DNA of 64,000 nt from Weeksellaceae bacterium (GTDB taxonomy: Bacteria > Bacteroidota > Bacteroidia > Flavobacteriales > Weeksellaceae): the NCBI GenBank assembly GCA_019459455.1, contig JAIBEX010000009.1, positions 558,001-622,000 on the forward strand, written 5' to 3'. The position numbers and the translations under genes were made by a program. The notes under the pieces are model-generated. The model did not search any database, had not been told where the DNA came from, and worked only from the letters and a program-made list of their open reading frames with translations. Positions 4,282-52,610 of this stretch are shown here, one piece after another (position 1 is the first letter of the stretch; each line of letters opens with the position of its first letter).

Positions 4282-4355
4282 CTCCTCCTCTTGGGCTCGA
4301 ACCAAGGACCCTCTGATTAACAGTCAGATGCTCTAACCAACTGAGCTAAGGAGGA
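4282..4355 (-). tRNA. tRNA-Asn (GTT)
   Basis: A 74-nt cloverleaf: acceptor stem TCCTCCT (4355-4349) with AGGAGGA (4289-4283), discriminator G at 4282, D-loop with AGCTCAGTTGGTTAGAGC, anticodon stem TCTGA/TCAGA with loop CTGTTAA and anticodon GTT at 4321-4319, and a T-arm with GGTTCGAGCC. CCA is not encoded. Confidence 0.97.
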
Positions 4356-50187: not shown

Positions 50188-51135
50188 ATGAACATTCAGC
50201 AGTTAGAATACCTGATCGCGGTAGACAAGTATAAGCATTTTGGTAAGGCGGCCCAGGCGTGCTTCATTACCCAGCCCACACTTAGTGCAATGATTCAGAA
50301 ATTTGAAGATGAACTGGATGTTAAAATTTTTGACCGCACCACACATCCCATCCGGACGACTGACGTGGGAATCCAGATGATTGAACACGCAAAGACCATC
50401 ATTGACTCGGTAAACGAACTCCGCAACAAAGCAGATTTGCTTAACAATGTGCTGGGGGGAAAGATTAACCTGGGAATCATTCCCACTGTGTCCTCCTATA
50501 TTTTGCCTTCAGAAATATTTGATTTTTTAAAGCAGAATGAAAAAGTGATCATGACTGTGAAGGAAATGACCACCGATAACATCATCAAAGCCTTAAAATC
50601 CGGGGAACTGGACGCGGGGATTATTGCCACCCCGTACGATGGCGCAAACGAATTTTACCAGGATTTTTTGTTCAATGAGGAGCTGATGCTTTACACCTCT
50701 GATGCGGATCAGAAAAAGGACACTTTTGTGGTTCCAGAAGAAATAAATGTGGAGAAAGTATGGCTGCTGGAAGAGGGGAACTGTCTCCGTACACAGTTTG
50801 AAAACATCTGCCATCTTAAGGAAAACGCACTGAAGCCGAAAAATTTGGAATTTCTGGCGTCAAACGTCAGTACACTTATCCAGATGGTGGATAAGGTAGG
50901 GGGAATTTCGATTCTGCCTGAGCTTGCAGTACAGCAACTGTCAGAAAGTCAGAACCGAAAGGTGTTCCGTTTCCGCAAGCCTTTTCCATACCGGGAAATC
51001 AGCATTGTTTACTATAAACCGACGTACAAACAGAAGATCATAGACGAAATGATAAGCGCAATTAAGGGTTCGGTTGAGAAAAAACTGAATTTCTCCAAAG
51101 CACCGGGGGATTTTGTTAATGTGAAGCCTCAGTAA
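50188..51135 (+). CDS. oxyR: OxyR-type LysR regulator of the peroxide response
   Basis: A 315-residue LysR regulator. The winged helix-turn-helix spans residues ~1-60 (HFGKAAQACFITQPTLSAMIQKFE). The redox pair is C199 and C208 (EEGNCLRTQFENIC), the same numbers as in E. coli OxyR, where peroxide makes them form a disulfide that switches on the target genes. Together with divergent katA this makes the assignment firm. The C-terminal end after residue ~290 is specific to this group. Confidence 0.93.
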   Translation: MNIQQLEYLIAVDKYKHFGKAAQACFITQPTLSAMIQKFEDELDVKIFDRTTHPIRTTDVGIQMIEHAKTIIDSVNELRNKADLLNNVLGGKINLGIIPTVSSYILPSEIFDFLKQNEKVIMTVKEMTTDNIIKALKSGELDAGIIATPYDGANEFYQDFLFNEELMLYTSDADQKKDTFVVPEEINVEKVWLLEEGNCLRTQFENICHLKENALKPKNLEFLASNVSTLIQMVDKVGGISILPELAVQQLSESQNRKVFRFRKPFPYREISIVYYKPTYKQKIIDEMISAIKGSVEKKLNFSKAPGDFVNVKPQ

Positions 51136-51189
51136 CGGCTGTACAAATATCTTTTGCTTACATCTTTTTGCGGTATCATAAATAGTCGT

Positions 51190-51197
51190 TAAATTTG
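51190..51197 (+). promoter_or_regulatory. -7 promoter element of metK
   Basis: TAAATTTG; predicted start near 51203, so the mRNA has a leader of about 127 nt that begins 8 nt before the riboswitch-like element. Confidence 0.6.
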
Positions 51198-51210
51198 CCG
51201 GAGTTAATAA

Positions 51211-51259
51211 GAGGAAAAATTTGACTGATTGCAACCTCAGAAAATAAATGCTAAAACAG
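51211..51259 (+). promoter_or_regulatory. SAM-II-like riboswitch in the metK leader
   Basis: The leader can form the H-type pseudoknot of SAM-II. P1: GAGG (51211-51214) with CCTC (51235-51238). The P1 loop segment CTG-A-TTGC (51225-51232) pairs with the tail GC-TAAAA-CAG (51250-51259): GC with GC, the UU facing the A-run where SAM-II binds its ligand, and CTG with CAG. The tail AAATAAATGCTAAAA closely follows the metX SAM-II tail. P1 is short (4 bp). The gene controlled makes S-adenosylmethionine, so feedback is expected. Confidence 0.7.
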
Positions 51260-51281
51260 AATTCCCTTCTTTTCTGTGTGT
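51256..51281 (+). promoter_or_regulatory. Hairpin overlapping the riboswitch tail
   Basis: ACAGAA (51256-51261) with TTCTGT (51272-51277), followed by GTGTTTTC. It shares the CAG needed for the pseudoknot, so the two folds exclude each other. This may be the expression platform; no long T-run follows. Confidence 0.4.
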
Positions 51282-51329
51282 TTTCTTTCAGGTTTTCCCC
51301 ATTTTTATAATTTTAAAAACACACAAAAT

Positions 51330-52610
51330 ATGTCTTATTTATTTACATCCGAATCTGTTTCTGAAGGGCATCCGGACAAGATCGCCGATCAAATTTCCGA
51401 TGCACTGATCGATAACTTCCTTGCTTATGACAAAAAATCAAAAGTTGCCTGTGAAACTCTGGTAACTACAGGGCAGGTGGTGCTTGCCGGTGAGGTGAAA
51501 TCGGAAGCTTATCTGGATGTTCAGACCATTGCCAGAGAGGTGATTAACGAAATAGGTTACACCAAAGGCGAATATATGTTCAACGGTGATTCGTGCGGTG
51601 TAATATCTGCAATCCATGAGCAGTCTCCGGACATCAACCAGGGTGTAGACCGAATCACAGATGATGCTGATTTTGAAACGAAAGCAAACGCGCAGGGAGC
51701 AGGAGACCAGGGAATGATGTTTGGTTATGCAACCAACGAAACCGAAAACTTCATGCCGCTTGCTTTGGATCTTGCCCATTCCATTTTGCAGGAACTGTCC
51801 GTATTAAGAAGGGAAAATGTGGCAATCCAATACCTTAGGCCGGACGCGAAATCCCAGGTAACCATCGAGTATTCGGATGACCACAAGCCGGTAAGGATTG
51901 ACAGTATTGTAGTTTCCACACAGCATGACGAGTTTGGAAGTGATGAAGCAATGCTGGCGAGAATCCGCAAAGATATTGTAGATATCCTCATTCCCAAAGT
52001 GAAATCTAAGCAGAAGACGGCTATACAGGATCTTTTTAATGACCAGATCAAATACCACATTAACCCCACAGGCAAATTCGTGATCGGTGGTCCTCACGGG
52101 GATACAGGACTGACCGGAAGAAAAATCATTGTGGATACTTACGGCGGAAAAGGTGCGCATGGAGGCGGAGCGTTTTCGGGCAAAGATCCTTCAAAGGTCG
52201 ACCGGAGCGCGGCCTATGCAACAAGGCATATTGCAAAGAACCTTGTAGCGGCTGGAGTTGCCGATGAAATTCTGGTTCAGGTTTCCTATGCAATAGGTGT
52301 GGCAGAACCTTGTGGTCTGTATATTAATACCTACGGAACTTCCAAAGTAAATCTGCAGGACGGAGAAATTGCTGAAAAGGTAAGGAAACTTTTCGATTTA
52401 AGACCGTTTGCCATTGAACAGAACCTCAAACTGAGGAATCCAATCTACCAGGAAACTGCGTCCTACGGACATATGGGGAGAGCACATTATACCGGAAGTA
52501 AAACCTTCAATAAAGGAAGACAGAATGAGCTGACCATCACTGACCTGGAATTCTTCACGTGGGAGAAACTGGACCGTGTGGATGATATTAAGACTGAATT
52601 CGGAATCTAG
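51330..52610 (+). CDS. metK: S-adenosylmethionine synthetase
   Basis: A 426-residue enzyme that makes S-adenosylmethionine from methionine and ATP. Motifs: [15 protein letters not shown] at the N-terminus, [12 protein letters not shown], and [20 protein letters not shown]. The length is slightly above E. coli MetK (384), as is usual in Bacteroidetes. The start is the ATG at 51330, since the frame opens 54 nt earlier in the leader. It has its own promoter and terminator. Confidence 0.96.

Follow-up and report, generated by a model that had tools for sequence, protein, structure and literature searches.

Riboswitches of the SAM-II class have been recorded in Bacteroidetes since the class was described. 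The founding paper of 2005 speaks of the Bacteroides group and has B. thetaiotaomicron among its listed organisms (PMC1273637), and the class is listed for Bacteroidetes in a 2007 survey (PMC2258182) and again in 2010, in Table 1 of PMC2864571, as RF01726. The first-pass annotation of the DNA analysed here had presented a SAM-II-like RNA in such a genome as unexpected; SAM-II in Bacteroidetes was by then already known from these three reports, and the aptamer itself adds nothing new. That description ended at the aptamer, and it is the expression platform (51260-51329) that is the less known part. No report on the expression platform of Bacteroidetes SAM-II was found among the titles listed by searches of open-licence literature. 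Bacteroidetes mRNAs are described as being without a Shine-Dalgarno sequence, initiation being tuned by structure and by an A at position -3 (PMC6847099). Hiding of a start of this kind seems to be one of the less ordinary points of the present locus, and the presence of a second, unrelated class of SAM sensor in the same genome is another.

The window, by which we mean the whole stretch of 64,000 nucleotides analysed, has at 51211-51259 the motif that had been read as SAM-II-like and placed in front of metK, and both parts of that reading hold. RF01726, the Bacteroidetes/marine model of SAM-II, matches here over its full length (model positions 1-60 of 60) with 71.4 bits against a gathering score of 44 (E 8.2e-12 in the 64-kb window), and the gene behind the motif has the Pfam domains of S-adenosylmethionine synthetase. 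This is the single Rfam match at E<=1 between 51000 and 51500, and over the 2.59-Mb genome RF01726 reaches E<=0.001 nowhere but in the metK leader. The window holds one further Rfam match above cut-off, a tRNA gene at 4282-4355 on the minus strand. The SAM_alpha model (RF00521), with which the annotation had proposed to check the motif, gave no match at the site: it is unlisted at E<=1 in 51000-51500, and its best score in the genome, 16.8 bits against a cut-off of 36, lies elsewhere. It was therefore rejected as the model for this RNA; Bacteroidetes members fall under the second SAM-II model, RF01726. That the host belongs to Bacteroidetes is borne out by the closest named metK, from Planobacterium oryzisoli (86% identity), followed by that of a Chryseobacterium MAG (82%). 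Planobacterium is classified with Chryseobacterium in Weeksellaceae, Flavobacteriales, and the family of the host is thus probably Weeksellaceae.

All of the elements that had been named, namely P1, TTGC, the GC/GC and CTG/CAG pairings, the tail ATAAATGCTAAAA and the box TAAATTTG, are present at the positions collected in Table 1. The aptamer ends 65 bases before metK, and 70 nt separate its last pair from the ATG. Covariation, which had been suggested for the closing helix, is real in P1 across relatives: among 75 distinct aptamer variants (2 of the 146 aptamers being unparsed) the second P1 pair is A-U in 44 and U-A in 27, listed jointly. The outer P2 triplets are CTG/CAG in 46 of the 75; in the other 29 they vary and, in the parse used, do not pair in every case. 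Among four congeners both P1 and P2 are invariant.

Table 1. Positions of the features discussed in the text, in window coordinates unless otherwise given
Feature	Position	Strand	Basis or remark
SAM-II aptamer	51205-51264	+	RF01726 positions 1-60; covariance model
P1 helix GAGG/CCTC	51211-51214 with 51235-51238	+	covariance model, letters, second-pair exchange in relatives
P2 pseudoknot, outer triplets CTG/CAG	51225-51227 with 51257-51259	+	letters
P2 pseudoknot, GC/GC	51231-51232 with 51250-51251	+	letters
Conserved TTGC	51229-51232	+	letters
Aptamer tail ATAAATGCTAAAA		+	letters
Anti-aptamer strand	51270-51300	+	pairs with 51211-51244 in predicted SAM-free fold
Sequestor 5' arm TGTGTGTTTT	51275-51284	+	inside anti-aptamer strand
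Sequestor 3' arm AAAACACACA	51316-51325	+	ends 4 nt before start codon
Promoter -33 region TTTTG	51166-51170	+	letters
Promoter -7 box TAAATTTG	51190-51197	+	letters
metK, S-adenosylmethionine synthetase, 426 aa	51330-52610	+	PF00438, PF02772, PF02773
SAM-I riboswitch	G000:C14:96251-96355 = L259 4252-4356	-	RF00162, before split metH

The metK gene starts at ATG 51330 with an A at -3, and is preceded by a gene for a LysR-type regulator (50188-51135) and, further upstream on the opposite strand, by catalase. An in-frame GTG at 51276 gives a longest open reading frame of 444 aa that takes in the platform from 51276 to 51329, and gene callers may set the start of metK inside the riboswitch platform. 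The -7 element proposed in the annotation recurs in relatives: of 146 leaders, 142 have a TANNTTTG box no more than 40 nt 5' of P1, as against 6.2 expected from shuffles. The median distance from the start of the box to P1 is 22 nt, and 79 of the 142 leaders that carry it have a TTG 17-23 nt further upstream. It matches the printed flavobacterial sigma-A consensus, TAnnTTTG (PMC9723704).

The aptamer is widely kept among relatives. In genome sets that overlap one another, RF01726 matches in 4 of 4 genomes of the genus, 284 of 296 of the family, 138 of 196 of the order and 118 of 149 mixed relatives. Conservation in the metK leaders of relatives, which the annotation had named as a check, is evident also at the level of the locus: metK was found in all 201 loci (L056 and L028 being the same locus in two collections), and the aptamer pattern lies within 500 nt before it in 146. 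The 55 loci without the pattern comprise 42 of the 80 obtained by searching for metK and 13 of the 121 that came from covariance-model matches or surrounding regions, so that a missing pattern does not equal a missing aptamer. A match is missing in 12 of the 296 family genomes. A search for metK in eight match-less genomes, six from the family and two from the order, was positive in seven, and no aptamer was seen on reading the seven metK leaders (L202-L208), one of which spans only 58 bases upstream. Three of these (L203-L205, from one genus) keep a promoter-like box, TAAATTT(G/A), near the metK start, and judged from their sequence they look like cases of clean aptamer loss.

Some genomes have more than one match. 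Weak second matches near 31 bits were read in eight cases, and seven of these (L215-L220 and, in G048, L265) are inside the coding sequence of ffh, a location that rules them out as second SAM-II copies; matches in ffh recur as false positives of the model. The eighth (L266, in G370) has no open frame. In two genomes a second strong match is found on another contig: in G434 both matches (L263, L264) precede a metK, and in G015 the second (L214) is on a short, fragmentary contig. These may be real duplicates or mixed assemblies. The ffh matches demonstrate that look-alikes of the aptamer do occur, and it could be argued that the RNA before metK is itself one of them, arisen by chance or by decay and without function. 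We consider this most improbable, given a score of 71.4 bits in the window, retention of RF01726 in nearly all genomes of the family, and conservation of both promoter box and metK. In terms of class identity the RNA before metK is almost certainly a SAM-II riboswitch. Binding of SAM and the direction of control we infer from class membership, and very probably the element lowers expression of metK when SAM is high.

The platform between aptamer and start codon is 70 nt long and poor in G (33 T, 18 A, 14 C, 5 G). A large part of it is predicted to pair back onto the aptamer, and this rod is the minimum free energy fold in all four congeners (-17.7 to -22.0 kcal/mol). Few of its pairs vary among the four; one has changed on both sides and some are broken. 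For the comparison between leaders, 139 of the 146 were used (7 were removed for N or length) and reduced to 71 non-redundant ones, 24 being family-like (metK at least 80% identical to that of the window) and 47 falling below. Aptamers pair better with their own platform than with foreign ones, none of 5000 permutations being as good for the 71, the 24 or the 47 leaders, although these are related sequences, which inflates the permutation counts, and the counts are therefore not probabilities. Against dinucleotide shuffles the pairing reaches p<0.05 in 13 of the 24 family-like and 30 of the 47 other leaders, and by partition function the pairing of aptamer and platform exceeds 95% of shuffles in 11 of 24 and 27 of 47. 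In the window itself 549 of 20000 shuffles pair equally well, and cross-pairing by partition function is not significant (shuffle fractions of 0.20 and, on repetition, 0.12). The platform finds its best match on the P1 side of the aptamer in 40 of the 71 leaders, in the core in 25 and in the tail in 6, and such variation fits a conserved role with drifting letters. We regard the anti-aptamer as well supported; the preference of aptamers for their own anti-aptamer is, like the aptamer, the promoter box and the gene, a computed observation, whereas the sequestor described below is supported but weaker.

Within the anti-aptamer strand lies a segment that could also pair close to the start codon. 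This putative sequestor is a duplex of 10 pairs at -12.2 kcal/mol, equalled by 110 of 20000 shuffles of the window, and because its 5' arm sits inside the anti-aptamer strand the two structures are mutually exclusive. The predicted unpairedness of its 3' arm is 0.53 in the free RNA versus 0.04 with the aptamer held formed. Own arms are preferred to foreign ones, with 10 of 5000 permutations as good in the 24 family-like leaders and 8 in the 47 others; at a looser redundancy cut, in which 47 of 71 family-like leaders were retained, none of 5000 was as good. In this looser set the accessibility of the start, free minus bound, exceeds that of shuffles in 35 of 47 leaders (Wilcoxon 1.3e-4).

Several tests speak against the sequestor. 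Single leaders rarely beat their shuffles at p<0.05 (just 2 of 24 family-like leaders and 4 of 47 others), and the accessibility change of 0.27 in the window is equalled by 17-23% of shuffles. The bound state taken alone is not more closed than in shuffles (p 0.084, the same 47 family-like leaders), the difference stemming mainly from a more open free state. Changes of more than 0.1 in the wrong direction occur in 3 of 24 and 4 of 47 leaders, and even among congeners the change may be small (0.06 in G002) or absent (-0.01 in G003, where the sequestor has 6 bp only). Leaders from outside the family show no accessibility effect (0.026 for own sequences, 0.006 for shuffled ones), and this, with only 4 of 47 leaders beating shuffles, rules out a start sequestor common to all SAM-II of Bacteroidetes. 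Support for it is moderate and comes from the family of the window only; we retain it as a candidate for the window and for part of its family.

These structures together suggest how the leader might work. Transcription would be driven by the TAAATTTG promoter, with the first nucleotide a few bases ahead of P1. At low SAM the anti-aptamer strand would pair with the aptamer over its 5' half and its core, taking apart P1 and P2, and the start region would be mostly open, so that SAM synthetase is made. With SAM bound, the pseudoknot would withdraw the aptamer bases from the anti-aptamer strand and thereby release the 5' arm of the sequestor, which could then pair with the 3' arm and cover the A-rich start, which has no Shine-Dalgarno sequence, leading to less translation. 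The position of the sequestor 4 nt from the start, together with its sharing of anti-aptamer bases, is what suggests a translational OFF switch independent of a Shine-Dalgarno sequence, and the translational level of control is in this sense inferred. Taken as a whole, feedback on metK by a SAM-II riboswitch through such an anti-aptamer and sequestor is the account towards which we lean, with some reserve.

Control could instead be exerted on transcription. An intrinsic terminator does not appear to be involved: a consensus scan, the only method applied, found no stem-loop with T-run between aptamer and metK, and none in 51100-51400 as a whole, where 0.2 would be expected in shuffles. The main rival is a Rho-dependent one, in which the strand freed by SAM, being pyrimidine-rich and G-poor, would serve as an entry site for Rho, and polymerase would stop before or early in metK; the anti-aptamer would mask this site when SAM is scarce. 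The composition of the platform, with 33 T and 14 C to just 5 G, suits such a site, and it is the anti-aptamer, which this alternative needs, that is supported far outside the family, where the start sequestor is not. It would leave the 10-bp helix near the start codon of the window without a role, and we think it a real though rather unlikely alternative.

It might also be proposed that the pseudoknot alone, that is P2 and the tail, blocks ribosomes, the downstream complementarities being by-products of a U-rich segment placed beside an A-rich start. Segments of these two kinds pair readily, and most single leaders fail to beat shuffles for the sequestor, two points in favour of this view. 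Own partners nevertheless beat foreign ones in permutations that preserve base composition, and the end of the aptamer is 70 nt upstream of the ATG. This explanation seems to us improbable, and the anti-aptamer and sequestor switch is the one we carry forward. If it is true, it shows riboswitch shut-off of translation where ribosomes ignore Shine-Dalgarno sequences, and does so in leaders that are easily mutated.

Analysis of the rest of the genome revealed a SAM-I riboswitch (RF00162, 73.3 bits against a cut-off of 44.4) about 513 kb from the SAM-II copy on one contig. It precedes a split metH, in which homocysteine S-methyltransferase is followed by the pterin, B12 and activation domains (Pfam). 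The 2007 survey came upon no species with both SAM-I and SAM-II (PMC2258182). Among 149 relatives, 80 have both classes, 38 SAM-II only, 11 SAM-I only and 20 neither, a count that includes matches below cut-off in 1 of 91 SAM-I genomes and 1 of 118 SAM-II genomes. Co-occurrence on this scale lets one ask why cells hold two unrelated sensors for one metabolite. Within the genus SAM-I is present in G003 and missing in G001 and G002. In at least seven genomes (L252-L258) the two riboswitches are divergent and 66, 67, 76, 90, 136, 170 or 243 nt apart. The gene on the SAM-II side is metK; on the SAM-I side six of the seven have homocysteine S-methyltransferase (metH) and the remaining one a Cys/Met PLP enzyme (metY-like). 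Genes behind SAM-I were identified by Pfam at nine loci only, for which the strand was taken from the search output. A tandem of SAM-II and SAM-I/IV on a single transcript has been published (PMC9481103), and no report of the divergent arrangement was found among the titles listed by searches of open-licence literature.

A broader reading may be offered tentatively. Bacteroidetes SAM-II could have a platform type of its own, with an anti-aptamer in competition with the pseudoknot that, within the family of the window, serves as a start sequestor too, and could form part of a pathway with two thresholds. Labour would be divided between SAM-I acting on methionine synthesis (metH) and SAM-II acting on SAM synthesis (metK), both classes being in one cell and sometimes sharing one divergent intergenic region. 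Two unrelated sensors for one ligand in the same cell would imply, on this reading, two thresholds in one pathway.

Compared with described systems, the locus is closest to SAM-II long loops (RF01726; PMC2864571), with which it shares the full-length model match and occurrence in Bacteroidetes, and no difference in the aptamer was seen. The aptamer of the window is without the long inserted loop of some relatives, such as L060 and L069. Flavobacterium aptamers (L060, L069, L071, L072, L078 and L090) have, between P1 and the ATGCTAAA tail, a long insertion that is self-complementary in part, and it is this feature that lies behind the "long loops" name. The SAM_alpha group, whose model does not match the window, has by its description the same plan of P1 and pseudoknot with a conserved core; in many of its members an intrinsic terminator lies downstream (PMC1273637), whereas none was found in the leader of the window. 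A pseudoknot and a proposed translational OFF switch are common to this locus, SAM-V and the translational SAM-II of metX. In the latter two, however, the Shine-Dalgarno sequence is in or next to the pseudoknot (PMC6061858), while in the window the start is 70 nt downstream and has none. The metA SAM-II of Sinorhizobium meliloti controls translation away from the aptamer, as is proposed for the present leader, but relies on a Shine-Dalgarno sequence, located 74 nt upstream of the start (PMC9373788). SAM-I (RF00162), present as one copy in the same genome, has the same ligand and differs in aptamer model, in locus and in the gene it precedes.
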